NCBI RefSeq assembly: GCF_024498175.1
Contig: NZ_CP101823.1
Span: 1,612,001 to 1,676,000, forward strand
Length of the DNA: 64,000 nt
Direction: 5' to 3'
DNA from: Haloplanus salinarum
Lineage (GTDB): Archaea > Halobacteriota > Halobacteria > Halobacteriales > Haloferacaceae
In this document: positions 36,316 to 50,144 of the stretch, piece by piece
Position numbering within the stretch: the first letter of the stretch is position 1
Layout: the number at the start of each line of letters is the position of its first letter
Position numbers and translations under genes: made by a program
Notes under the pieces: model-generated
Seen by the model: the letters and a program-made list of their open reading frames with translations, nothing else
Told to the model about the DNA's origin: nothing
Databases searched by the model: none

Positions 36316-36400
36316 CATACTGTTTATCGTAAGTCATTACCGGTGGTTCGCCGAGACGTTCCGGCGAACCACCGGTAACCAGTTACAATAATCCGTATCA
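36316..36400 (-). repeat. 85-bp palindromic repeat, copy 2 (on the herA-like stop codon)
   Basis: On the minus strand the first triplet TGA (36398-36400) is the stop codon of the HerA-like gene. It continues TACGGATTATTGTAAC, with arms ACCGGTGGTTCGCC and GGCGAACCACCGGT and the end TTACGATAAACAGTATG. Copies 1 and 2 differ at only about seven positions, fewer than most other pairs. Confidence 0.95.
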
Positions 36401-38264: not shown

Positions 38265-39428
38265 TCAGATGTCGTCGTCCGTATCCCCCGTGTCGCCGTC
38301 GTCCTCGACTGCCTCCGCCGTGCTGTCGCCCTCGAGAATCGTATCGAGGCCGCTCGTCGGCGGTTCGCACACGTACAGGAGGCCGTCGTCGGCGACGTAG
38401 AAACTGCCGTCCTCGGGGTCCTCGAACACGCGGGCGTCGAGGTCGATGGCCGTGTCGACGAGACCTTCCAGTCCGTCGACTTCGACCCGGGGACGGTCGC
38501 TGACGGTCGCGGGGAGCCGTGCGGTCGTGATCCAGTCGTCGAACTCCTCGCGAGTCGATCGGAACTGCAGTGTCGCACGCTCGGCTTCGGAGACGGCGAA
38601 CAGATCGTCGTACCGTCCGTACGCAAGGCCGGCGAGGCCAAGGAAGCCCACGATCAGCGCGGCCGGGCCACCGATCCGGTACGCCGGTCCGTACGTCCGC
38701 TGCCGGGTGAACGGTTCGGTCGTCGATCCGTCGAGCGATTCACCCTCGACGGCGCCGACCTGATAGGTGGTCCCACTGACCGAAACGGGGAGCCGGTAGT
38801 CCGCCGTCCGCGCCACGTCGTTCCCGTTGACGGTGCCCTCGAACTCGACCGTCGAGACGACGAGCATCTGAATCGTACCGGGCGTCCCGCCGAGCCGCTC
38901 CGAGATGTTCGTCATCCGGTTGTACGTCCGGTTGACGTTGCGTTCGAAGGTGAGTTCGGTCGATTCGCCCGGTTCGATGCCGGTCGTGCGCGTCGTCCCG
39001 AGTGGTTCGGTGAGCCGCCAGAACTCGATACGTTCTTCCCCGCTCTGAGTCGGCTGGGATTCGACCGCGCGGAGTATCAACGTCTGCTGGACGGTCACGT
39101 CCACGCTCCCACCGTCGGTCGCCTGGTAGCCGAACCGGAACGTCCCCTCGACGAGCGGACTGATGGAGAGGAAGTACGCGGGTCGATTCGAAAGCTCGGT
39201 GCCGACCGAATACAGCGGGTTCGGCTCCGTCACCGTTGCCCTCGTCTCGTAAGTTCCGTTGGCCTCCCACGAGGAGACCTGTCGCTGCTCGGTCGTCGTT
39301 CCGGGAGCCTCGTAGGCTGTGTACGTCGCGTACCCGCCGACCGCCATCAGTACCACGCCGACCAGGACCAAGACCGCGAACCACTCGTCCAGCAGGATCC
39401 GTCCGCGCACCCCCCACTCCCGTGACAT
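38265..39428 (-). CDS. DUF5305 membrane protein
   Basis: A 387-residue bitopic protein: a short cytosolic start, helix 1 (WFAVLVLVGVVLMAVGGYATY), a large extracellular beta-rich domain (about 45-265, including SPLVEGTFRFGYQATDGGSV), helix 2 (GGPAALIVGFLGLAGLAYG) and a cytosolic tail ending in an acidic run. This layout and T-Y-x-A-Y-E-A-P-G match DUF5305, which in haloarchaea typically sits beside a signal peptidase I gene and small secreted DUF1102 proteins, as it does here (signal peptidase 50 bases upstream). A role in processing or assembling those proteins is inferred. Confidence 0.85.
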   Translation of the reverse strand: MSREWGVRGRILLDEWFAVLVLVGVVLMAVGGYATYTAYEAPGTTTEQRQVSSWEANGTYETRATVTEPNPLYSVGTELSNRPAYFLSISPLVEGTFRFGYQATDGGSVDVTVQQTLILRAVESQPTQSGEERIEFWRLTEPLGTTRTTGIEPGESTELTFERNVNRTYNRMTNISERLGGTPGTIQMLVVSTVEFEGTVNGNDVARTADYRLPVSVSGTTYQVGAVEGESLDGSTTEPFTRQRTYGPAYRIGGPAALIVGFLGLAGLAYGRYDDLFAVSEAERATLQFRSTREEFDDWITTARLPATVSDRPRVEVDGLEGLVDTAIDLDARVFEDPEDGSFYVADDGLLYVCEPPTSGLDTILEGDSTAEAVEDDGDTGDTDDDI

Positions 39429-39478
39429 GTGGCGCTTTTTCCCGATACCCCTACAAGAATCTTGAGGAGGCGGCGGGA

Positions 39479-40636
39479 TTACCCGTACCGCCTCAACAGT
39501 CGCCGGAGGGTCGAGACGCCGTCACGGGAACGGGAGCGAGAGCGGAGCCGGCCGGAGCCGACGAGCGACATCCCGAACAAGTAAAAGGGGACGCCGATGA
39601 CGGCGTCGACGACGAAGATCGGCAGCCACGGGTGGACTCGGTAACAGGCGTCGATCACCGACGGAGGCAGAACGGCGAGGTAGCGATACTCCGAAACGTA
39701 CCGACGGTAGTACCCCGTCTCCGGGGGAGCGGACAGCGTCAGCGTCGCGTTCGCGCTCGATCGACCGGGGACGCGAAGCCGTTCGGGAGTCGTCTCGACA
39801 CCCTCGCTGGCGGGCGTCAGATAGACCACGACGGGGACGACGCCGGCGTTGGGGACGCGGTAGGTGAGGGACTCGGCGGTCCCCTGTCGGATGATCGTCG
39901 GATTCTTCGAGTCGAAGTCCGCGCTCACGACGCCGAACTCTTGGGTTCCCGCGGGAACCACCATCGACGCCGTCGCGGTGAGAACGATCAGCGCCGCGAG
40001 TCCGGCGACGATGACCCTCGACGACAGCCCCCGGTCCCGACTGCGGGATCGGCTTCGGTCGCGGTCCGTTCCGTCGGTCACGAACAGATCGAAGAGGTAC
40101 AGAAGCACCGAGAGACCGAGCAACAGGTACGTGAGTCCCTGGGTCCCGAGCAAGGATCGGCTCCCCGTCACCGACGCGAGCGTCCGCTGGGTGTCGGTGA
40201 CGGCGCTTTGGAGACCCATCACCGCCGTCCCGAGGTGTGGAATCACGACGACCGAGCCGCCGACTTGCCACGCCTTGGCGACGATTTGGGCATCCTTCAC
40301 CGGTGGCTCGTTGCCGTCCTGATCGGTGAATGGATTGGCGTCACCGCGGGTGACGTAGCCCCGCTCCGTCTCGCCGACGATCCGATGGGTCGTGAGACCA
40401 CCACCCTGGATCTGTTCGGCCCGAAAGACGATCACGTCACCCTCCTCGACGTCGCCGTCGATGGCCGTCGGGATGGCGACGAACCCATCGCCGGGGTTCA
40501 ACGTCGGCTCCATGCTCCCGGTTTCGACGAACCCGAGCAACACCGGATAGCCGAGCGCCTGTCCGGCGACGAGCGCGACGACGACGACGATGGCGAGGAC
40601 CTCCCCCGCGACCGAGAGCATGCGTCGGGGAGACAT
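39479..40636 (-). CDS. signal peptidase I, archaeal/ER type
   Basis: A 385-residue S26B protease. The N-terminal anchor helix (EVLAIVVVVALVAGQALG) is followed by the catalytic GSMEPTLNPGD with Ser41, then GDVIVFRA, TTHRIVGE with the catalytic His (replacing Lys of bacterial enzymes) and TRGDANPFTDQD with the Asp. The protein is twice the size of a housekeeping archaeal enzyme, since it adds two more membrane helices around an extracellular beta domain (about 230-345) and a C-terminal basic tail. Location within a cluster of DUF1102 genes suggests a dedicated SipW-like protease for those substrates. Confidence 0.93.
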   Translation of the reverse strand: MSPRRMLSVAGEVLAIVVVVALVAGQALGYPVLLGFVETGSMEPTLNPGDGFVAIPTAIDGDVEEGDVIVFRAEQIQGGGLTTHRIVGETERGYVTRGDANPFTDQDGNEPPVKDAQIVAKAWQVGGSVVVIPHLGTAVMGLQSAVTDTQRTLASVTGSRSLLGTQGLTYLLLGLSVLLYLFDLFVTDGTDRDRSRSRSRDRGLSSRVIVAGLAALIVLTATASMVVPAGTQEFGVVSADFDSKNPTIIRQGTAESLTYRVPNAGVVPVVVYLTPASEGVETTPERLRVPGRSSANATLTLSAPPETGYYRRYVSEYRYLAVLPPSVIDACYRVHPWLPIFVVDAVIGVPFYLFGMSLVGSGRLRSRSRSRDGVSTLRRLLRRYG

Positions 40637-40710
40637 TCGATTCACCGGACGATTACGTCGAGCCGATAAAAAACCTCTCCGCTCACCCCGTCTGCCGTCA
40701 CCGATCGCCA

Positions 40711-41574
40711 CTATCCGGTCGATCCGTCGGTATCGAACAGCTCCAGCACCAGACACACGTACGGGCCGATGAATCCGAGACAGAACCCGAGTAGATGGAC
40801 GTAGTCGTTCGGAACCGTCGCCGACCCGGTGGCACCGGCACCGAACCCGACGAACGGGAATCCGACACACAGGAGGGTCGCGACGACGAGGAGGTCGAGC
40901 CAGCCCCGCGTCGATCCCGCCGTCTCTACACCCCCAGCTCGTCGGCGGTCCGTCTCGAGAGCGTGGACGTAGTACGTTCCGAGCACCCCACAGGTCAGCG
41001 TGATTCCCAGACTCGTCGTCGAGGGGGGGAGGGCGACGACGGGTGTGATGGCGATGACGACGAAAAACACGGCCGGTGCGTGCCGGAACTCGATCCACGA
41101 GGCGAGTCTCGCCCGGGCATAGATCGGAATCAGGAGAGCGAGAAGGCCAGCGAACGCAGCGTTCACGCCCGAAAATCCGTACCCGACGGCACGGCGGGGA
41201 AGGGCGAGGTTCAACGCGGAGAGCACGGGGGGGAGTGCTAGCAGGAAGGTTCCCGTCGCGGCCCCGAACAGTCGCCGCCGACCGGCGAGTACCGCGAGCA
41301 GATACGCGACACCGGCGAACACTCCGTACCCGAGCAGATTCGAGGCGAGATGTGTGACCCGGAAGTGGACGAAGTGTGCGGCGAACGCCGTCGTGAGAGT
41401 GGGCGAAGCGTAGAGAAAGGTCAGCGAGCGGCGACTCGATTCCGGTAACAGGAAGATGCCGAGCAACGCTGCCGGGACGGCTGCGAGCGCCAGGCAGTCC
41501 CGGACCCGAACGAGGTCGACGACAACGGCGCCGAACGGCGGATCGTCGGTCGAGCGGAGCGACACGACAGTCAC
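40711..41574 (-). CDS. rhomboid-family intramembrane serine protease
   Basis: About 287 residues from a GTG (41574) that overlaps the stop of the upstream gene (GTGA). It has about seven membrane helices. The rhomboid motifs are HFRVTHLASNLLGYGVFAG (the H-x-x-x-N helix), GYGFSGVNAAFAG with the nucleophile Ser in G-F-S-G, and VHLLGFCLGFIGPY with the catalytic His and G-x-x-x-G. So the catalytic dyad is intact. It should cleave membrane-anchored proteins; coupling to the PGF/CARDB surface protein gene suggests that protein, or its neighbours, as substrate. That is inference. Confidence 0.85.
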   Translation of the reverse strand: MTVVSLRSTDDPPFGAVVVDLVRVRDCLALAAVPAALLGIFLLPESSRRSLTFLYASPTLTTAFAAHFVHFRVTHLASNLLGYGVFAGVAYLLAVLAGRRRLFGAATGTFLLALPPVLSALNLALPRRAVGYGFSGVNAAFAGLLALLIPIYARARLASWIEFRHAPAVFFVVIAITPVVALPPSTTSLGITLTCGVLGTYYVHALETDRRRAGGVETAGSTRGWLDLLVVATLLCVGFPFVGFGAGATGSATVPNDYVHLLGFCLGFIGPYVCLVLELFDTDGSTG

Positions 41575-43079
41575 CCTCCGCCGGTTCCACCGCGTCGACG
41601 GCGGATCAGTAACGCTACGAGCGAGATCGAGATGATCCCGGACAGCCACGCGATCGACGACGGGTCGAGTGTCGCGGGTTCGCTGACCGACGCGTTCGTC
41701 CGATCGGCAGGGGTCGGTGACGGAAGGGTCGAGGACTGGGTCGGCGATTCGCGTTCCGTGCCGTCCTCGTCGACCGGTGTGGCACCGGACGGGGCGTCCG
41801 TCGTCGGGGCCGCGACGACGAACGTCCCGGCGTCGACCCCGTCGACGCCCACCGCGTACCGCCCCGGCGACCGTGGCTGGACGGTGAACCGAACTCTCGC
41901 CGTCTCGCCGGGTGCCAACTCGACGGCGCGCGTGTCGATTCGCTCGCCGTCGATCGACAGACTGATGTTTCGCTCCCCGGCCGCGAGGCCGTCGTTCCGG
42001 ACAGACACCGCGACCGTCGAGGACTCGCCTGGCACGACGGTCGAGCGCTGCGGACCGGCGTCGACGATCCGAAGGTCGGGGGTTCGGACGCCCACCACGA
42101 ACGTCGAGAACCCGGGCGACTCGGCTTCGAACACCGCACGGCCGTTCTGCATGCCGACGTACCTCGCGTCGAGTGAGTGCCAGCCGCCACCGTCGCTGTG
42201 TCGGACCACGAGATGGTCGGCGGTGGTTCCTCTGGCCTCGAGATACGCCGGCGCGGCACTGAATCGGAGCGTGGCGGACTCGACCGAACCACCGTCCGTC
42301 ACTTCGACTGCCCCGAGGGCACTGATCCCGGTGTTGGCGTCCGGTCGCTCCGTCCCCTCGAGCACCCGGACATCGACCGACATCGAGCCGCCGTCGCCGG
42401 TCACGACCAACTCGTCGAGGGTGAGCGTCTCCGTCTCGATGGCGTCGACCACCAGTCGGTCCGTATCGAGCGTGACCGGCGCCCCGGCCGGCGCGTTCGT
42501 TACGGTGAACTCCCGAGCGTCGTCGCTCGGCGCGTAGGAACTGACCGAACGGTTGTCGTCCGACGTGGCGGCTCCCCCGGTGGCCTCGGCGTCGACGTCG
42601 CCCGGTTCGGCGACCCGCGCGTGGACGGTCAGGTCCTCCAACAGCCCGTCGGTGGTTCCGGTCGTGTCGACTCGCATCCCGACGGTCGTCGATCCGTTGG
42701 CCGGCAGGACGACGGCGTTGGCCTCGGACTGGATCGGCCGACCGTCCGCCCGGAGAGTGACCGACTCCGAACCGTGCGTGATCCAGATGCGTGCGAACCG
42801 CTCGCCGCCGTAGTGGACGACGAACACGTCGTCGAGAATCGTGACGGCGTCGACGCCCACACCGTCGCCCTCGAGGTTCGGATTGGCCGCGGTGAGGTCG
42901 ACGACGAGTTCGCCGTCGGCGAGGTAGGCATACCCCCCGTTCGGTCCCGACGACGGGGAGAGTGACACCTCCTCCCCGACGGGATCCGACGCTCCGGGGA
43001 AGGCGCCGGTCCCGACGGCGAAGGTGGCGGCGGACAGTATCAGAACGCCCACGGCGAGACGCGCGATGACTCGGCTCAT
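41571..43079 (-). CDS. surface protein with PGF-pre-PGF and CARDB-like domains
   Basis: A 502-residue secreted protein with a C-terminal anchor. The N-terminus LAVGVLILSAATFAVGTGAF carries a G-x-G-A-F motif like that of the DUF1102 proteins nearby. The middle (about 150-355) ends with AVFEAESPGFSTFVVGV, the hallmark of the PGF-pre-PGF domain, followed by a CARDB-like repeat (STVVPGESSTVAVSVRNDGL), a Thr/Ser/Pro-rich stalk (about 430-475), a membrane helix (AWLSGIISISLVALLI) and a basic tail RRRRGG. It would stand on the cell surface on a glycosylated stalk. The stop overlaps the rhomboid GTG. Confidence 0.8.
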   Translation of the reverse strand: MSRVIARLAVGVLILSAATFAVGTGAFPGASDPVGEEVSLSPSSGPNGGYAYLADGELVVDLTAANPNLEGDGVGVDAVTILDDVFVVHYGGERFARIWITHGSESVTLRADGRPIQSEANAVVLPANGSTTVGMRVDTTGTTDGLLEDLTVHARVAEPGDVDAEATGGAATSDDNRSVSSYAPSDDAREFTVTNAPAGAPVTLDTDRLVVDAIETETLTLDELVVTGDGGSMSVDVRVLEGTERPDANTGISALGAVEVTDGGSVESATLRFSAAPAYLEARGTTADHLVVRHSDGGGWHSLDARYVGMQNGRAVFEAESPGFSTFVVGVRTPDLRIVDAGPQRSTVVPGESSTVAVSVRNDGLAAGERNISLSIDGERIDTRAVELAPGETARVRFTVQPRSPGRYAVGVDGVDAGTFVVAAPTTDAPSGATPVDEDGTERESPTQSSTLPSPTPADRTNASVSEPATLDPSSIAWLSGIISISLVALLIRRRRGGTGGG

Positions 43080-43258
43080 CGGACGACAGCGGAACATCGA
43101 ACTCCCGACCCTTCAGTATAGGGTGTTTGAACCGGGTATCATACCGATTGAAACGGTCGCCACCGCCTCAGTTCTTGCCGCTGATAATTCGCCCGCGCGA
43201 CTTTTACGTCTTCAGGTAGACAGTTTCGCCGAGAACGACCGATCGATTTCCCCCCACG

Positions 43259-43738
43259 ATGAACGCGTTACGAACCGAAGACAGAGGCGTATCGAACACC
43301 GTCGGCGTCGTGTTGTTGGTCGGCATGGTCGTCCTATTGGCCGCGACGCTGTGGGTATTGGTGTCTGGACTGGCCGGATCGCTCGGGCCGGCCCCACCAC
43401 AGGCCGCCTTCGATTTCGAGTACGAGACGGGCGTCAGCGACCCCAACTGTGCGAGCGATCCCTGTGAGGTCGTCCGCGTCGTCCACACGTCGGGCGATAC
43501 GTTCGACCCCGAGCAGGTCGAGGTGGTAGTGTACTACATGGACGGCGGAACGGAACAGCGGTACGCGACCGACTGGGTCGACGTCGTCGTCGATCCGGTC
43601 GACGCGGGTGAGCGGGTCCGCGTTTGGACGAACAGCCCCATCGACACGCTCGCGACCGCCCGGATCGAACTGCTCTGGACGAGCGAGGACGGCCAACACA
43701 GCGACGTGATCGCGCGGTGGGAAGGGCCGTCGGCGTGA
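43259..43738 (+). CDS. type IV pilin-like protein (archaeal Pilin_N)
   Basis: A 159-residue protein whose N-terminus is an archaeal class III signal: a short basic leader ending DRG, then VSNTVGVVLLVGMVVLLAAT, so PibD-type prepilin peptidase would cleave just before the hydrophobic helix. The helix forms the pilus core or an anchor. The rest is a beta-rich head domain with one Cys pair (NCASDPCEVV). It is on the opposite strand from the surrounding surface genes. An AT-rich stretch about 55 bases before the ATG may be its promoter. Subunit of an adhesive pilus or a pseudopilin. Confidence 0.85.
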   Translation: MNALRTEDRGVSNTVGVVLLVGMVVLLAATLWVLVSGLAGSLGPAPPQAAFDFEYETGVSDPNCASDPCEVVRVVHTSGDTFDPEQVEVVVYYMDGGTEQRYATDWVDVVVDPVDAGERVRVWTNSPIDTLATARIELLWTSEDGQHSDVIARWEGPSA

Positions 43739-43796
43739 CACGTTGCCCCCGGTCGTACGTCCGATCCGACGGTCCCGGCCGGACCCCGGAGACTCC

Positions 43797-44689
43797 TCAC
43801 TCCGCCGTCGCCGGAAACTGAACGGTCGTCAACCCCACGAACGAGCCCGCGGAGTCCTCGTCGGCGGCACTCAGGGTGACAGTGATGGGTCCTTCGACGA
43901 TCCGATCCGTGAACAACCCGACTTCGAAGTTCGAGCGCTCCGGCGCCCCCGAGTCCGGTCCGTCGGGCAGATGTTCGAAGGAATCCGTGGCGCCGTCGTC
44001 GCTGGTCGCCTCGACTCGGAACCCGGTCACGTCGCCGTCGTCGGTGTCGGCGACTTCGACCTTGTAGTAGAGGCCAGTGATCCCGCCGTCCGTGAACGTC
44101 GCCGATCCCTCGAACCGCTCCACGTCGAACCGGTCGGCGGGTAGTTCGACGTCGCCCCCGTCGCCCGGTCTTCGACCGTCACGCCGAAGTTCTCCGCAAC
44201 CGCGGTGATTTCGTTCTGGGTGAGCGTGTCGGCCAACCACTCCGGGTCGGTCCGCAAAATGCCGCGGGTCGTCCGGTCGAGGATCTCGTTCGGCGTCGAC
44301 TCCTCGAAGGTCTGCCAGTTAGTGCCGGGGATGCCCTCGTTCTGCTGGTAGACCGCCCGCATCGGCCCGTGTCTGTCGGGCATTACGGCGCCACCCCCGA
44401 GCGGGCATCGTGGCTGCGTCCGTGCTGACGTCCTGGCCACCCGCGCCCTGGCGTTCGTGAGGTTGATACCTAACTGCCCGTTGCTCGTGTCCGTGTCGTC
44501 CGCCGTCGACATCGCGAACACGCCGTTCGGCCCGGGTCCCACACTCAGACCGAGATACGAGCCGGCGTCGTCGGCGACGCGCACGGTCACGTCGCGGTCG
44601 GCGCTGGTGCTCGTGAACGCGCCCGAACTAACGATGCTCACCCCGCCGGTCGTAGCTCCTATGCCGAGCATCAGTTGTCGTCGTTTCAT
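43797..44689 (-). pseudogene. frameshifted DUF1102-type secreted protein
   Basis: The 5' part (from ATG 44689) reads MKRRQLMLGIGATTGG, then SSGAFTSTSADRDVTVRVAD, the signature of the neighbouring DUF1102 genes. The frame stays open to 44027, but after the segment ending VTVEDRATG (about 44160) it becomes Ser/Arg/Thr-rich. The homologous continuation, starting VELPADRFDVERFEG and ending VQFPATAE, is in another minus-strand frame to 43797. A one-base indel near 44150-44170 explains this. A second anomaly near 44380-44455, where the Arg-rich run has a better reading (GAGGQDVSTDAATM) in the third frame, suggests another indel. Sequencing error is an alternative. Confidence 0.65.
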
Positions 44690-44731
44690 GTCATGTCTCC
44701 CGCCTCGGTTTGACCGATCCCTCGATCAAAG

Positions 44732-44770
44732 CCCACCGACTGAGTCGAACCGTCGAAATGCCGACGTGGG
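44732..44770 (-). promoter_or_regulatory. shared leader motif upstream of the broken DUF1102 gene
   Basis: On the minus strand GACGGTTCGACTCAGTCGGTGGGC closely matches the sequence upstream of the DUF1102 gene at 45901-46425. A TATA-like CGATATAGCC (about 44776-44785) lies just upstream. The motif looks like a tRNA T-arm with the end of an acceptor stem, though here the stem has mismatches. It marks the two promoters as paralogous. Confidence 0.4.
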
Positions 44771-44865
44771 GTATTGGCTATATCGTAGCGTCCTGTCACC
44801 GCTGACGACACGGTTCGTTAGTGAGCAGTCGAAGAGTAGGTGAGTGTCCTACTCATGCCCTGCTG

Positions 44866-45900
44866 CTATCCGAGATACGTGCTGTTTGCTCCAGCAGATG
44901 TGGTCGTAACCCCGCCAGTCGTATCGAACGTATTGTTGCTCTTAACGGGACTCAGTGCGATTTTCTCACCGTCGCCAGATGGGGTAGGTAGGGAAACGTC
45001 CTCCCTGTCAACACTGAACACGAAGATCCCAGCACCGTCACTGAAGTCGTTCCCTGTGACGGTTACATCGAGGCTTTCAGACTCGTACACTGCGAGACAG
45101 TATCCGTTGGTGTCGAACTGGTTACCTGTAATCGATGCGCTGTAGGATAGCGGCTTATCTGTCGCATCAGTTCCACCGAAGGCAATCCCCAGCTCCGTCT
45201 CAATTACATTATCACTCACCGTCAGGTTCTCGATATTCGAGACGTACCGAGTGATTCCGATCGTGTCAGCGCTAGCGTCAGCCGGTGAGATCACGTTATC
45301 GCTGATTGTGACGTCGTCTGCGCTTTCAATCGCGACACCACCGAGGCTGGCATTTTCACCGTCGTTGTCGTTCGGGGTGATGACGTTGTTGGCTATCGTC
45401 GTACCGTCGGCCGGTTTTCCAACTGCTCCCACCTGTATCACGCCTTTCTGGGTGAGGCTACCACTAGCTTCGCGCTCGAGAGCGAATCCGTCGATGGTTA
45501 CCCCTGTAGCATCGACTGCAACCAAGCTATCGACCGTCGCTTCCGCCCCACGGTCGCCGTCACCGGCGACACCGGCGTTCGGCCCGAACAGCGTGATGTC
45601 GTCTTTATTGTTTTCCTCGTCGGTGGTTATGTCGAATCCACTGTACGATCCCGATTCGACGGAGATCACGGAGCCGGAATCGACGTTGTCGATCGCATTC
45701 TGGATCGAGGTGTAGTCGCCGCTTCCGTCCGCGTTGACGACGGCGTCGTAGAGGTCGCCCGCGGGACCGGATGGGCCGCCCTCCTCGCCGGTCAGATCCG
45801 CCAGCGCCCCGTTCAGTCGCTGGCGAACGTTCGGGGGGATATCCTCGACGGTGAGTTGCCCACTCGCCTGATCGACGAAGTCCTGGATATCGAGTGTCAT
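44866..45900 (-). CDS. low-GC right-handed beta-helix protein
   Basis: A 344-residue protein of parallel beta-helix type. Rungs are visible as short repeats: GSGDYTSIQNAIDNVDSGS (the pectate-lyase/NosD-like entry), DGTTIANNVITPNDNDGEN, DVTISDNVISPADASADT, NLTVSDNVIETELGIAFG and DVTVTGNDFSDGAG. No cleavable signal is present at the N-terminus (MTLDIQDFVDQASGQ), unlike its neighbours, although it is immediately downstream of a secreted-protein gene with no gap between stop and ATG. GC content is clearly lower than the window (many A/T-ending codons), so recent transfer is likely. Perhaps a surface or bound enzyme; no catalytic residues recognised. Confidence 0.8.
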   Translation of the reverse strand: MTLDIQDFVDQASGQLTVEDIPPNVRQRLNGALADLTGEEGGPSGPAGDLYDAVVNADGSGDYTSIQNAIDNVDSGSVISVESGSYSGFDITTDEENNKDDITLFGPNAGVAGDGDRGAEATVDSLVAVDATGVTIDGFALEREASGSLTQKGVIQVGAVGKPADGTTIANNVITPNDNDGENASLGGVAIESADDVTISDNVISPADASADTIGITRYVSNIENLTVSDNVIETELGIAFGGTDATDKPLSYSASITGNQFDTNGYCLAVYESESLDVTVTGNDFSDGAGIFVFSVDREDVSLPTPSGDGEKIALSPVKSNNTFDTTGGVTTTSAGANSTYLG

Positions 45901-46425
45901 CTACGGAGCCACCCCCGAAACCGTGATGGTGTCGTCGACGCTCGTGTTCGTGCCGCCGGGATACACGTCCACGACGAGGCTGTACGTCTCGGCGTTCCCC
46001 GGGGAGAGATTCACCGTCGGGAAGTTCGTGTCGGGGACGACCAACACGATGAGCGTGTTGCCCGAGTTCGTGTCGACGAACGTCAGCGGGGTCACCGACA
46101 CGTCGACGGCCTGGGTCCCCTGATTCCGGACCTCGAAGAGGTCCTCGATGACGGTGACGGCGTCGGTGTTGACGCCGGACCCGCCGCCGCTGGTCGTGTT
46201 GCCTCCGTCGAGGTCGATACCGAACTCGCCGTTGGCGTCCTCGGTGACGTACTCGGCGTTGTCGTTCCCGGTATCGTCGATGGCGAGATACGCCAGTGCG
46301 TCGTCCGTGACCGACACGGACACGTCGCGGTTCGCCTGAACGGTCGTGAACGCACCCGTCCCGTTAACGACCGCACCACCGCCGCCGATGGCCCCGATTA
46401 TCGCCAAGAGCTGTCTCCTGTTCAT
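45901..46425 (-). CDS. DUF1102-type small secreted protein (TasA/camelysin-like)
   Basis: A 174-residue exported protein: N-terminus MNRRQLLAIIGAIGGGGAV, then the signature GTGAFTTVQANRDVSVSVTDD right after the hydrophobic segment. The body has the pattern F-E-V-R-N-Q-G-T-Q-A-V-D-V-S-V, shared with two genes upstream, and predicted all-beta structure. The ATG at 46425 is preferred to a GTG 9 bases upstream. The beta sandwich, N-terminal signature and nearby signal peptidase I resemble TasA/camelysin, which polymerise into extracellular fibres. The stop (45901) directly precedes the beta-helix gene ATG. Confidence 0.82.
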   Translation of the reverse strand: MNRRQLLAIIGAIGGGGAVVNGTGAFTTVQANRDVSVSVTDDALAYLAIDDTGNDNAEYVTEDANGEFGIDLDGGNTTSGGGSGVNTDAVTVIEDLFEVRNQGTQAVDVSVTPLTFVDTNSGNTLIVLVVPDTNFPTVNLSPGNAETYSLVVDVYPGGTNTSVDDTITVSGVAP

Positions 46426-46450
46426 GAATGTCACCGCCCTCTCAGGCGAG

Positions 46451-46496
46451 GCCCACCGGCGGAGTCGAACCGCCGAGAACCGTGGAATGAACCACG
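46451..46496 (-). promoter_or_regulatory. double-hairpin leader of a DUF1102 gene
   Basis: On the minus strand CGTGG-TTCATT-CCACG (46481-46496) and GGCGG-TTCGACT-CCGCC (46458-46474) form two perfect 5-bp stems. The second is followed by GGTGGGC and looks like a tRNA T-arm. A TATA-like AATTAAT (about 46520-46528) upstream would start transcription near 46500, placing both hairpins in a leader of about 75 nt. A related sequence precedes the broken paralogue at 44732-44770. Confidence 0.45.
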
Positions 46497-46524
46497 ATTC
46501 GCGCCTGCGTGGGTATGGGATTAA

Positions 46525-47079
46525 TTATGTAGTGATGATTGAGCCACCACCGCTCGCATCGGCGCTAATTGTTGTCGTACTACTAACATCTTTGAACTGC
46601 GCGCTGGCGCTCAGATCGATAGCGACGCCGATGTTGGCGCTGCTCCCAGTCGAGAGTTCAAGATCGTTCGTGTGGAGTGGCTGACTAGGGGTACTCCCCT
46701 CGTAGAACGTGATCGCCACGTCGCCACTCTGTTGGTCTATCTTGTCAATAGACACGAAATACGTCTGCGTGCCCTGATTCGAAACCTCGAACACGTTGTC
46801 GAATTCGTAGTCCGAGCGCACACCTGGGCCTGAGCCGGAAACGTTGGGCCCGGCTCCGTTGAAGTCCAAGAACAGCTCGTTTGCGCTTGTTTGGGAGGCG
46901 AACGAATCGCCGTTATCAGAGTTTAGCGGCTTCAGTCCGAGGTACGCGTTGTTCTCGTCGGCAACTTGGACAGCCACGGTTCGGTCGGCTGTTACGCTCG
47001 TGAACGCGCCGGTGCCGATGGTGGCCGCCCCACCGCCCATGAGCGTCCCGAGTCCGGCTAACGCCTGTCTTCGTTTCAT
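46525..47079 (-). CDS. DUF1102-type small secreted protein (TasA/camelysin-like)
   Basis: A 184-residue exported protein: MKRRQALAGLGTLMGGGAA, the signature GTGAFTSVTADRTVAVQVAD, and the core segment FDNVFEVSNQGTQTYFVSI. Predicted all-beta after the leader. It follows the next paralogue by 13 bases, so the two are one transcription unit. GC content is moderately lower than housekeeping genes. It lacks Cys, and has many Ser/Asn/Asp residues typical of haloarchaeal surface proteins. Assignment as fibre-forming is by analogy with TasA/camelysin proteins. Confidence 0.82.
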   Translation of the reverse strand: MKRRQALAGLGTLMGGGAATIGTGAFTSVTADRTVAVQVADENNAYLGLKPLNSDNGDSFASQTSANELFLDFNGAGPNVSGSGPGVRSDYEFDNVFEVSNQGTQTYFVSIDKIDQQSGDVAITFYEGSTPSQPLHTNDLELSTGSSANIGVAIDLSASAQFKDVSSTTTISADASGGGSIITT

Positions 47080-47092
47080 AATCCTTCAGCTC

Positions 47093-47647
47093 CTACACGG
47101 CGTCTGCCTCAACCGTGAGGGTGAGACCACTGAGATCGCTCGTGCCCGAGTCGACCGCGAAATCGACGTCCACCTTCTCACCCTCGTCAAGTTCGACCGT
47201 ACCATCCGTGTCGCCGTCGTCGGTGCTGAGCGCAGCGGCGACACCATCACCGCTTATACCGTCAACATCGATATCGCCCGGGTCTTGGATGGTGATGCTA
47301 GGGGAGCTAGAGGAGGAGAGGTCGACTTCGACGTTCTGTGTGCCCTGGTTCTCGATCTGGAACACCTCCTCAAAGACGGTCTCTGCGTTCGGGTTCACAC
47401 CCGAACCCGAACCGGGGCTCCCGGAGCTGTCGAAGTCGATGGTTATCTCATCGCTCGAACTTCCACTGGCGAACTGACCGTTCGGGTCCGAGGTGGCCCG
47501 CAGCCCGACGTACGCGTTCGTGTCATCCGCCACGTTGACGTTGACCGTCCGGTTCGCCTCAACACTCGTGAATGCGCCAGTACCCACCGTCGCCGCCCCG
47601 CCGGCAGCGATCGATCCCATCGTCGCGATGAACTTTCGCCGTTCCAT
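47093..47647 (-). CDS. DUF1102-type small secreted protein (TasA/camelysin-like)
   Basis: A 184-residue exported protein: MERRKFIATMGSIAAGGAA, the signature GTGAFTSVEANRTVNVNVAD, and the core segment FEEVFQIENQGTQNVEVDL, close to the same positions as in the paralogue downstream. The two are 13 bases apart. Strongly acidic C-terminal half (DDGDTDGTVELDEGEKVDVD). It is divergent from the DUF7344 regulator gene (240-base gap), which may control it. Probably surface-exposed and processed at the hydrophobic leader. Confidence 0.82.
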   Translation of the reverse strand: MERRKFIATMGSIAAGGAATVGTGAFTSVEANRTVNVNVADDTNAYVGLRATSDPNGQFASGSSSDEITIDFDSSGSPGSGSGVNPNAETVFEEVFQIENQGTQNVEVDLSSSSSPSITIQDPGDIDVDGISGDGVAAALSTDDGDTDGTVELDEGEKVDVDFAVDSGTSDLSGLTLTVEADAV

Positions 47648-47887
47648 AGTTGGTCACGTGCCCCGTCGGGAGCACGTCTCACCCCTGTACATCCATCCAC
47701 CTTGTTGTGAGGCGATTGAAACGACGAAAACGAAGTCGTAGAACCGGTTCAACGGCTCGATTGACGGGAGCCAACGACCGTTTGACGTCGTTTCAAGCCG
47801 GGATTGAGTGGGTGTTGGACGGGCCTGAAAGACCCGTCGGCGGCGGTTACTTATGTGACAGGGGGATGTGACGTTAGTTCGATACGT

Positions 47888-48445
47888 ATGGGGGGTACGT
47901 CGAACGGAACGAGTCTCGCACGGGACGACGTCTACGAGGTACTGAGCAACCGACGACGGCGGTTCGTCATCCACTACCTGCAGCGGAACGGGCCGCGGGC
48001 GGCGCTGGGGACGCTCGCGGAGCACGTCGCCGCGTGGGAGAACGGCATCGACGTCGCCGCGGTGGGGTCGGACGCGCGCAAGAACGTCTACACGTCGCTC
48101 CAGCAGTTCCACCTCCCGAAGATGGAGGACCTGAACCTGGTGATCTTCGACCAGCGCGCCGGCGAGGTAGAGCTCACCGACGACGCGGACGACGTCGACC
48201 TCTACCTGGAGGTCGTTCAGGGTCGGGACGTGCCTTGGAGCCTCTACTACCTCGGAGTGGGGACGTTGACTGGGGTGGTGACGCTCGGTCACGCGCTCGA
48301 CCTGCCGGTGCTGGCTGGGATTGGCGACGCCAGCCTGGCGATGTTCACGATCGTCGCCATCGCCACACTGGCGCTGGTTCACACCTACTACACCCGCGGG
48401 ATGCGACTGGGCTCGGAGGGACCACCGCCGGAAGTCGAGGGATGA
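47888..48445 (+). CDS. DUF7344 winged-helix protein with C-terminal membrane helices
   Basis: A 185-residue protein. Residues 10-105 are a winged helix with the haloarchaeal pattern VYEVLSNRRRRFVIHYLQ, TLAEHVAAWENG and KNVYTSLQQFHLPKMEDLNL. Then come two membrane helices (LYYLGVGTLTGVVTLGHALD and ASLAMFTIVAIATLALVHTY). This is the DUF7344 architecture, a membrane-tethered DNA-binding protein often found beside DUF1102/signal peptidase clusters. The ATG at 47888 follows a TATA-like TTACTTATG (about 47849-47858). The stop overlaps the start of a secreted DUF1102-like gene (ATGA). Likely local regulator of the surface cluster. Confidence 0.85.
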   Translation: MGGTSNGTSLARDDVYEVLSNRRRRFVIHYLQRNGPRAALGTLAEHVAAWENGIDVAAVGSDARKNVYTSLQQFHLPKMEDLNLVIFDQRAGEVELTDDADDVDLYLEVVQGRDVPWSLYYLGVGTLTGVVTLGHALDLPVLAGIGDASLAMFTIVAIATLALVHTYYTRGMRLGSEGPPPEVEG

Positions 48446-48966
48446 GCCGTCGACGCCGACGGATCGTGGCGGTGCTCGCGCTGTGCGTAGCGGCGAGCAT
48501 GGCCCTCGGTGTCGGCGGATACTCCGCCGCCTCGGCGGACCGGAGCGTGAGTGTCACCGTCGCCGAACCGTCGGAGGCGTATCTGGCACTCGACGGCAGC
48601 CTCCAGTGCGGGATGGGCCGCGGCGTCGGCAACAACAAGGGCTTCGTTCACAACCGGTTCCCCGAGAACACCACCGTCGAACGGATCGACGTCACGGTCA
48701 CGGCGGTCGACGGCTACGTCCGTGTCGGTACCGGCGGGCAGGCCGAACAACTGGGGCCGGGCGAGTCGGCCGACCTGACCTTTTGGGGACCGTACGATTC
48801 CGGTGACTCGGCCGGAATACAAGTGAAACCACCCACCGCCAACAACGTCTCCGGTGCCGACTCGTTGCACGTCGAAATCGACTCGGCAACCGGACCGAAC
48901 GTCGGCGTCTCCGGGGCGACACGAACGTACGAGGTCGACTGCCCCGGAACGTACGGTCGCAACTGA
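48442..48966 (+). CDS. DUF1102-like secreted protein coupled to the DUF7344 regulator
   Basis: A 174-residue exported protein: RRIVAVLALCVAASMALGVG, then GGYSAASADRSVSVTVAEPS, a divergent form of the signature of the four DUF1102 genes on the other strand. The body is predicted beta-rich with Gly (TFWGPYDSGDSAGIQV). Two Cys (LQCGMGRG and EVDCPGTY) may form a disulfide. Its start overlaps the regulator's stop (ATGA), so expression is coupled. It may be a minor or anchoring subunit, or a signal read by the regulator; both are inference. Confidence 0.78.
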   Translation: MSRRRRRIVAVLALCVAASMALGVGGYSAASADRSVSVTVAEPSEAYLALDGSLQCGMGRGVGNNKGFVHNRFPENTTVERIDVTVTAVDGYVRVGTGGQAEQLGPGESADLTFWGPYDSGDSAGIQVKPPTANNVSGADSLHVEIDSATGPNVGVSGATRTYEVDCPGTYGRN

Positions 48967-49115: not shown

Positions 49116-50062
49116 CCGGCCGCGCTCCCGACCTCCACCCCGAAGCGGAAACGATCCTCGACCGCGTCGATCTGCCGCCGACCGCCTCGCTCTCGGTCGA
49201 GGGCGCCCGGGAGGCGCTCCGGGACCTGCTGGTCGCCGAGGAGCCGCCGGACGACGACCTCACGGTCCGTGACCTCTCGATTCCCGGACCCGGGGACGAT
49301 CCGGAGACGTCGCTGCCGATCCGGACCTACACGCCGCCCGATGGAGGGGCCCGACCGGTGTTCGTGTACCTCCACGGCGGCGGGTGGGTCCGTGGCGACC
49401 TGGACACCCACGACGGACTCTGTCGTCTGCTCGCCGAGGCGGCCGACTGTGTCGTCGTCTCGGTCGACTACCGACGGGCGCCGGAACACCGCTTCCCGGC
49501 GGCGGTCCACGACGCCTACGCGGCGACGGCGTGGGCGGCCGAGTACGCCGAAATCGTCGGCGGCGACCCGGACCGGGTGGCGGTGGGGGGTGACAGCGCC
49601 GGCGGTAACCTGGCGGCCGCGGTGACGCTGCTAGCGCGGGAGCGCGACGGGCCGGAACTCGCCCACCAAGTGTTGCTCTACCCGGTGACCGACTACGCGT
49701 TCGACACGTCGTCCTACGACGAGAACACGGCGGGATACCTGCTCTCCCGGGCGAGCATGCGTTGGTACTGGGAGCGCTATCTGGGCGACGATATCGACGG
49801 CGCCAACCCCTACGCGTCGCCGCTCCGGGCGCGGGATCTGTCGGGACTGCCGTCGGCGACGGTGATCACCGCCGGCTACGACCCGCTGCGGGACGAGGGG
49901 GCGGCGTACGCGGACCGCCTGCGCGAGGGGGGCGTCTCGGTCACCCACGAGAACTACCCGGGGATGGTCCACGTGTTCGCCTCGTTCCCGGACCTCGACC
50001 GGGCGCGGGACGCACGGCGGGTGATCGCCGACGGACTGGCGACCGCCTTCGGCCGGGACTGA
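49112..50062 (+). CDS. alpha/beta hydrolase, hormone-sensitive-lipase-type esterase
   Basis: A 316-residue esterase from a GTG start. The oxyanion motif is FVYLHGGGWVRGDLDTHDG, the nucleophile elbow GGDSAGGNLAAAVTL, the catalytic Asp lies in AGYDPLRDEGAAYAD and the His in GMVHVFASFPDLD. The HGGG plus GDSAG pair puts it in esterase family IV. Cytosolic, with no signal. It should hydrolyse short acyl esters; natural substrate unknown. The start overlaps a 12-codon leader ORF. The stop codon TGA is the first triplet of repeat copy 3. Confidence 0.93.
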   Translation: MTGRAPDLHPEAETILDRVDLPPTASLSVEGAREALRDLLVAEEPPDDDLTVRDLSIPGPGDDPETSLPIRTYTPPDGGARPVFVYLHGGGWVRGDLDTHDGLCRLLAEAADCVVVSVDYRRAPEHRFPAAVHDAYAATAWAAEYAEIVGGDPDRVAVGGDSAGGNLAAAVTLLARERDGPELAHQVLLYPVTDYAFDTSSYDENTAGYLLSRASMRWYWERYLGDDIDGANPYASPLRARDLSGLPSATVITAGYDPLRDEGAAYADRLREGGVSVTHENYPGMVHVFASFPDLDRARDARRVIADGLATAFGRD

Positions 50063-50144
50063 TACGGATTATTGTAACTGTTCACCGGTGGTTCGCCAGG
50101 ACAGTCCGGCGAACCACCGGTACTGACGTACAATAAACAGTATG
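50060..50144 (+). repeat. 85-bp palindromic repeat, copy 3 (on the esterase stop codon)
   Basis: TGA at 50060-50062 is the esterase stop. It continues TACGGATTATTGTAACTG, then the arms ACCGGTGGTTCGCC (50083-50096) and GGCGAACCACCGGT, and ends TACAATAAACAGTATG. The outer parts TTATTGTA and TACAATAA also pair, so the whole element folds into one long imperfect hairpin. Confidence 0.95.

Follow-up and report, generated by a model that had tools for sequence, protein, structure and literature searches.

Positions 38265 to 48966 of the window, which is the whole 64,000-nucleotide stretch of Haloplanus salinarum DNA under analysis, contain genes for small secreted Taf/DUF1102 proteins together with a signal peptidase, a DUF5305 protein, a rhomboid protease and a DUF7344 regulator, and are read here as a locus for the biogenesis of Tat-fimbriae (tafi), filaments whose subunits leave the cell by the twin-arginine (Tat) pathway. 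The source genome comprises 3.45 Mb in one contig. The locus is enclosed by a HerA-like gene (start 38218) and an esterase gene (start 49112). On the minus strand it has taf1 to taf3, then genes for a beta-helix protein, a broken Taf copy, a TafF-position protein, the rhomboid, the signal peptidase and DUF5305; the plus strand carries the DUF7344 gene and a divergent Taf gene, which overlap by 4 bases, as well as a type IV pilin gene (Table 1). An initial annotation, made from the sequence alone, had named and placed these genes and counted three intact, one broken and one divergent Taf copies, all of which were found; its assignments of DUF5305 and DUF7344 also stood (E = 1e-51 and 2e-28, respectively), while the beta-helix gene at 44866-45900 and the twin-arginine leaders of the small proteins were overlooked. 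The HerA and esterase genes were considered as parts of the locus and ruled out, as they recur at most at 3 of 61 and 2 of 80 loci, respectively. Because these flanks are found at so few other loci, the borders that the annotation had drawn at 38265 and 48966 are the natural ones.

Table 1. Genes at positions 38265-48966 of the window and the evidence for their assignment
Feature	Position	Strand	Evidence
DUF5305 membrane protein: transmembrane helix, extracellular beta domain, transmembrane helix, cytosolic module	38265..39428	-	PF17231 E=1.1e-51
Signal peptidase I of archaeal/ER (endoplasmic reticulum; SipW-like) type, with extracellular C-terminal domain and transmembrane helix	39479..40636	-	TIGR02228 62.8 bits, above cut-off
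Divergent rhomboid protease (putative), GTG start inferred	40711..41565	-	Conserved HxxxN, GxSG, terminal His
TafF-position protein: non-RR leader with GTGAF, DUF1102, PGF-pre-PGF and CARDB domains, spacer, C-terminal signal	41571..43079	-	PF06510 28 bits, CARDB, TIGR04213
Type IV pilin-like gene, judged a bystander	43259..43738	+	PF07790 E=3e-13
Broken Taf copy, pseudogene	43797..44689	-	TafE 43 bits; Taf-like for ~80 codons
Leaderless right-handed beta-helix protein	44866..45900	-	Weak PF13229/NosD matches
taf3, predicted small secreted fibre protein, MNRRQLL...GTGAFTTV	45901..46425	-	TafE E=4e-16; Taf profile E=1.2e-37
taf2, predicted small secreted fibre protein, MKRRQAL...GTGAFTSV	46525..47079	-	DUF1102 E=1e-7; TafE E=8e-14; Taf profile E=3.4e-42
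taf1, predicted small secreted fibre protein, MERRKFI...GTGAFTSV	47093..47647	-	TafE E=2.3e-20; PDB 9p0a_C E=6.3e-16 by sequence; top fold match
DUF7344 winged-helix, membrane-bound regulator	47888..48445	+	PF24035 E=1.8e-28
Divergent Taf protein in TafC position, 4-base overlap with DUF7344 gene	48442..48966	+	Weak TafC/TafA/TafE matches

The stretch 38265-48966 is one conserved haloarchaeal locus. Within a sample of 145 Halobacteria genomes, 118 contain DUF5305, and 60 regions of ~19.5 kb centred on it, spread across genera, were compared with 20 control regions elsewhere in the same genomes, using profiles built from the window proteins. The gene-neighbourhood statistics that the annotation had proposed as a check bear this out: the signal peptidase is present in 57/60 regions (0/20 controls), Taf/DUF1102 proteins in 55/60 (0-1/20 controls, at most 1 by any Taf profile), DUF7344 in 51/60 (0/20 controls) and the rhomboid in 21/60 (0/20 controls); beta-helix proteins occur in 2/60. 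Further, among 65 long loci in named genomes that were anchored on the signal peptidase, DUF5305 is found in 63, Taf proteins in all 65, DUF7344 in 62 and the rhomboid in 43; the two sets share genera and some genomes, and are not fully independent. The common gene order has Taf0 and DUF7344 pointing one way and, pointing the other way, one or more Taf genes, a TafF-like gene, in some loci the rhomboid, the signal peptidase and DUF5305. The DUF7344-TafC pair seen at 47888-48966 also occurs in loci with a true TafA.

The small proteins identify the system. Their leaders share the GTGAFTSV-type end that had been described (taf1, GTGAFTSVEANR; taf2, GTGAFTSVTADR; taf3, GTGAFTTVQANR, with one substitution), the leaders of the broken and divergent copies read SSGAFTSTSADR and GVGGYSAASADR, respectively, and the NQGTQ core is present in taf1, taf2 and taf3; the broken copy loses its reading frame after ~80 Taf-like codons. 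Among NCBIfam models, taf1-taf3 are nearest to TafE, TafA and TafC, all below cut-off, and the best score is 73 of 155 bits for TafE. When a profile of 91 Taf proteins was compared with the PDB, one convincing structure emerged, 9p0a chain C 'Pilin' (E = 2e-25), which taf1 alone also matches (E = 6e-16). Moreover, a Foldseek search with a model of taf1 placed 9p0a first ('Natrinema sp. J7-2 Tafi pilus', E 7.9e-4, probability 1.00) and the Pyrobaculum bundling pilus 7UEG third. The gene for 9P0A itself (100% identity over 186 residues) was located in a Natrinema locus (L212 in genome G092), where DUF7344, the pilin, a TafF-like protein, the signal peptidase and DUF5305 stand in the same order as in the window; a Haloarcula-type locus (L069) contains TafA, TafC, TafE and TafF above the curated cut-offs, together with the signal peptidase, DUF5305 and DUF7344. 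Because the Taf matches to 9P0A, the Natrinema gene order and the Haloarcula-type gene set agree, we conclude, with a probability of roughly 85%, that the window holds a tafi biogenesis locus, with Tat-exported and peptidase-cut subunits, donor-strand assembly and a TafF-like anchor. All six Taf profile matches of the genome fall within it. The annotation had also held that an assembly of this kind was undescribed, which is largely wrong because tafi are already known: haloarchaeal Tat-fimbriae have been published (Galeva et al. 2025, iScience 28:111793, as cited in PMC12687288), NCBIfam already has TafA, TafC, TafE and TafF families and the pilus of Natrinema sp. J7-2 has been solved. The missing letters in that series hint, as a guess, that TafB and TafD are names for neighbouring genes such as those of DUF7344 and the signal peptidase.

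The leaders are consistent with one export and processing route. An RR pair is present in 101 of 102 small Taf proteins (MERRKFI, MKRRQAL and MNRRQLL in the window), and the expected cut falls between G and AF[TS] in 83 of the 102, where the search pattern itself required G followed by A-F/Y/L/W. Of the 215 residues of 9P0A, the structure resolves 188, consistent with the loss of the first 26-27 residues, up to the junction between GTG and AF. From these features we infer a mechanism in which the taf1-taf3 subunits would fold in the cytosol and exit via the Tat pathway, after which the dedicated Ser-His-Asp signal peptidase would cut just before A-F-T/S. The cut would free a hydrophobic N-terminal strand, AFTSVxAxRxVxV, that could fill out the beta-sandwich of the subunit that follows, in the manner of TasA and the archaeal bundling pili; donor-strand pili are among the fold matches of taf1. 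With its Taf-like domain and membrane tail, the TafF-position protein is likely to be the subunit nearest the cell or the one that anchors the fibre; the adjacent rhomboid may cut this tail and thereby either release the anchor or transfer it to a different one, as rhombosortase does. As a membrane protein, DUF5305 could be partnered with the signal peptidase or the assembly site, and DUF7344 would regulate the divergent operons.

The rhomboid and the tail of the TafF-like protein are a part of the locus that may be new. The TafF-position protein combines a PGF-pre-PGF domain with a weak DUF1102 domain and ends in a C-terminal signal at 41574-41684 (SEPATLD, a transmembrane helix and RRRR); this tail (SEPATLDPSSI...RRRR) is a weak form of an E-P-x-G-F/I motif. 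The annotation was right that the protein has a PGF-pre-PGF domain and a G-x-G-A-F start (here GTGAF), but the tail is not a PGF-CTERM archaeosortase tail, an identity that was rejected when neither the window protein nor eight related tails matched TIGR04126; no sorting model scored the eight tails above cut-off. A profile of the tails matches the window's TafF-like protein with E = 9.7e-16, the tail itself being in the profile, and has no other significant match in the genome. The rhomboid matches nothing in Pfam and no NCBIfam model above cut-off (the best is the rhombosortase model TIGR03902, at 16.3 of 84 bits), and across 73 sequences HxxxN, GxSG and the final His are each at least 93% conserved; it is a divergent rhomboid with a complete set of catalytic residues.

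Across loci, the two elements are associated. In most rhomboid loci, the TafF-like protein terminates in E-[PAL]-x-[GA]-[FI]..., a hydrophobic helix and arginines; most rhomboid-free loci, that of Natrinema included, show a different ending. A strict pattern for the tail is positive in 66 loci, 61 of which have an adjacent rhomboid, and in 0/793 control frames. The five tail-only loci are L047 (genome G135), L066 and L133 (both G023), L052 and L174; strong rhomboids are encoded at other places in the genomes G135 and G023, the rhomboid of L052 is broken and L174 is a metagenome contig. Counted from the other side, 57 of 81 distinct rhomboids have a strict tail frame within 1.5 kb, and some of the remaining 24, the window's among them, are accompanied by looser variants. 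Both patterns were written after the tails had been viewed; the strict one missed true variants, including the window's own, and the loose one gave two false positives (L074 and L082). At the level of genomes, the association has a Fisher p of 7e-4 for the loose pattern, which was devised after the fact. In Natrialbaceae, one genome (G046) has both tail and rhomboid, and the other loci examined have neither. The tail profile was further run on seven genomes, five of its matches there belonging to the profile itself: it finds one strong match each in G000, G011 and G124 and at least two each in G135 and G026; G043 has none and G107 one weak match (4e-4), and both of these genomes are without the rhomboid. 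Moreover, off-locus rhomboids in G026 and G135 adjoin surface proteins of at least 2100 residues with the same tail (L222:1-6315 and L226:7711-14001), one of them with VWD and trypsin-like domains.

These associations suggest that rhomboid and tail form a dedicated rhombosortase-like pair in archaea. In particular, haloarchaea would possess a system in which divergent rhomboids cut tails composed of E-P-x-G-F/I, a helix and arginines, nearly one to one and chiefly on TafF-like proteins, also on large surface proteins, and so provide, besides archaeosortase, a further archaeal means of C-terminal anchoring or release; alongside it, DUF5305 and the signal peptidase would be an old archaeal module common to tafi and to fibres of the TasA/camelysin type. 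The odds of this proposal are put at even, and those of the pair at one chance in two, because the pattern was found post hoc and the neighbours share ancestry. That shared ancestry also means that the tail-rhomboid association is not made of independent cases, and it favours an alternative in which an archaeosortase-type enzyme acts on the tail, or the tail does no more than anchor the protein in the membrane, and the rhomboid stands beside it by chance or as a quality-control protease. The tail has a three-part layout like that of PGF-CTERM, and one off-locus rhomboid (L225) adjoins a PGF-like tail. However, the tails tested gave no match above cut-off to TIGR04126 or any other sorting model, the loci lacking an adjacent rhomboid are largely accounted for by rhomboids elsewhere (G135, G023) or a broken gene (L052), and off-locus rhomboids adjoin large, unrelated surface proteins that bear the same tail (L222, L226); this alternative is accordingly doubtful.

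A second alternative makes the regulator the substrate: the rhomboid would cut membrane-bound DUF7344 by regulated intramembrane proteolysis and free its winged-helix domain to switch the operons, and the TafF-like protein would not be cut at all. The DUF7344 protein of the window has two hydrophobic stretches close to its C-terminus, and off-locus rhomboids of the same subfamily adjoin DUF7344 genes in L216, L221 and L228, where a relation between rhomboid and regulator is possible. Yet DUF7344 is found in nearly all loci and the rhomboid in only a third to two thirds of them, and the presence of the rhomboid tracks the TafF tail, as in the Natrialbaceae locus of G046 that was seen with both, which makes proteolysis of the regulator improbable.

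Several observations weigh against reading the window as a tafi locus with the full set of parts described here. About a third of the signal-peptidase-anchored loci are without the rhomboid, which is therefore not essential for tafi in general. None of the window proteins passes the curated TafA, TafC, TafE or TafF cut-offs; the solved Natrinema tafi pilin fails as well, 9P0A scoring 76.5 of 155 bits for TafE, so that this cut-off delimits the Haloarcula type rather than all tafi. The model of taf1 is of moderate quality only (predicted local distance difference test score, pLDDT, 76.9; template-modelling (TM) scores 0.47/0.41), and TasA is absent among the top PDB fold matches listed for it. 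Finally, the window's Taf proteins are putative filament subunits. They might instead have the fold without forming filaments and belong to the S-layer or, as soluble proteins, to the matrix: DUF1102 has no assigned function, and the numerous Taf copies have diverged (21-43% identity with taf1). As a protein from the same type of locus forms the solved pilus, and the most conserved part of the Taf proteins is the N-terminal AFTSVxAxRxV, as expected of a donor strand, a non-filamentous role has a slim chance, and the tafi reading is retained.

The signal peptidase and DUF5305 tie the locus to other fibres. The enzyme is of the archaeal catalytic type that had been assigned to it, with Ser-His-Asp motifs (GSMEPT, LTTHRI and RGDANPFTDQD; GSM, THR and GDxNPF are invariant) and a score above the TIGR02228 cut-off, and it is the only close copy in the genome. 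The genome's other signal peptidase is distant and of housekeeping type (G000:C1:283962-284975; L234:846-2084), and carries the cytosolic module of DUF5305 at its C-terminus (PF17231, 39.7 bits). The C-terminal part of the locus enzyme (39479-39980) forms an extracellular domain whose conserved YRYLAVLPP...HPW motif lies outside the matched signal peptidase models. An AlphaFold2 model of DUF5305 (pLDDT 92.4) has two transmembrane helices that flank a long-stranded beta domain; its fold search returned weak arrestin-like and Spo0M matches with TM scores below 0.25 over the query, which were not used, and a profile comparison of Taf with DUF5305 found no relation. DUF5305 adjoins the signal peptidase in nearly all loci and occurs in other families of the phylum Halobacteriota outside Halobacteria. 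There, L235-L243 combine it with one or two signal peptidases and SipW-dependent or camelysin-like proteins; these have classical SipW-dependent leaders (GSGTLAYFSDTETS) and score above cut-off for TIGR04088 and the camelysin family PF12389. Two more loci, L244 and L245, hold Taf, DUF7344, signal peptidase and DUF5305 together. DUF5305 is read as a standing partner of these signal peptidases.

An extracellular-fibre locus akin to the SipW-TasA/camelysin system, as the annotation had proposed, is thus borne out by the match of the Taf profile to a tafi subunit, by the fold matches to 9P0A and 7UEG and by the camelysin-type genes that adjoin DUF5305 elsewhere; the comparison with TasA is right in kind, although by sequence the window proteins do not belong to the TasA/camelysin family. 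A TasA/camelysin (SipW) system acquired directly from bacteria, suggested by the like leader logic and signal peptidase type and by those same camelysin-type neighbours of DUF5305, is very improbable, as the window proteins match only Taf/DUF1102 models and neither PF12389 nor TIGR04088, their leaders are of Tat and not Sec type, and the locus is spread across archaea.

Two further genes lie among those of the tafi locus. The beta-helix protein, which is counted with the fibre genes, lacks a leader; its ATG comes immediately after the stop codon of taf3. In L052 a stand-alone relative is placed likewise after a taf3-like gene, and both L052 and L090 encode in-frame fusions in which a beta-helix domain follows a Taf domain (L052:6375-11539, L090:13247-14734); the protein is probably a fibre-bound add-on and may, as a guess, travel through Tat together with taf3. 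The type IV pilin, which the annotation had counted as a part, is ruled out, being present at 0/60 DUF5305-centred and 2/65 signal-peptidase-anchored loci; it is a single, non-conserved gene on the opposite strand, and no type IV pilus ATPase or membrane platform is found among the genes scanned. Outside the locus, a similar peptide, LIRIIVT..RWFA.T.RRTTG, ends reading frames at both flanks (36324-36400 and 50050-50136), a likeness that suggests a short dispersed DNA repeat 3′ of genes.

Among the haloarchaea sampled, the fibre locus is very common, and it is tied to TasA/camelysin fibres via the shared signal peptidase-DUF5305 module; this module and the rhomboid with its tail are where its remaining interest lies. 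If the pairing is true, it would add an archaeal C-terminal sorting signal that has no model in any database searched, and would account for the attachment of a Tat-fimbria to the cell or its release. Compared with known haloarchaeal tafi, the window has the same twin-arginine leaders ending in GTG-AF, the Taf fold and the gene order with DUF7344, TafF-like protein, signal peptidase and DUF5305; it differs in subunits that score below the Haloarcula-type cut-offs, in several Taf paralogues with no true TafA or full-length TafC, and in its beta-helix protein, rhomboid and TafF-like tail. In the TasA-TapA-SipW/camelysin system of Bacillus, a dedicated ER-type signal peptidase likewise lies by the subunits, Phe follows the cut and a beta-sandwich receives a donor strand (PMC9674648, PMC10269814). 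In particular, the P2′ residue of TasA is Phe, and the protein is cleaved by the ER-type SipW and very poorly by the bacterial LepB (PMC10269814); once freed, its N-terminal strand completes the subunit that follows (PMC9674648). In contrast, the window has predicted Tat instead of Sec export, and DUF5305, rhomboid and DUF7344 as partners. The Pyrobaculum calidifontis bundling pilus (7UEG) and the Sulfolobus threads (7PNB) resemble taf1 in fold (Foldseek E 3.4e-3 and 3.3e-2), whereas the PDB sequence search gave no match to them at E ≤ 1. Lastly, the rhombosortase/GlyGly-CTERM system also pairs a rhomboid with a C-terminal signal composed of a motif, a helix and arginines, with G beside the helix (PMC3237569, PMC6219818). 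The window rhomboid scores far below TIGR03902, its partner does not match TIGR03501, and the system is archaeal, with an E-P-x-G-F/I motif and a near one-to-one pairing of rhomboid and tail in place of the many-to-one relation of rhombosortase and GlyGly-CTERM.

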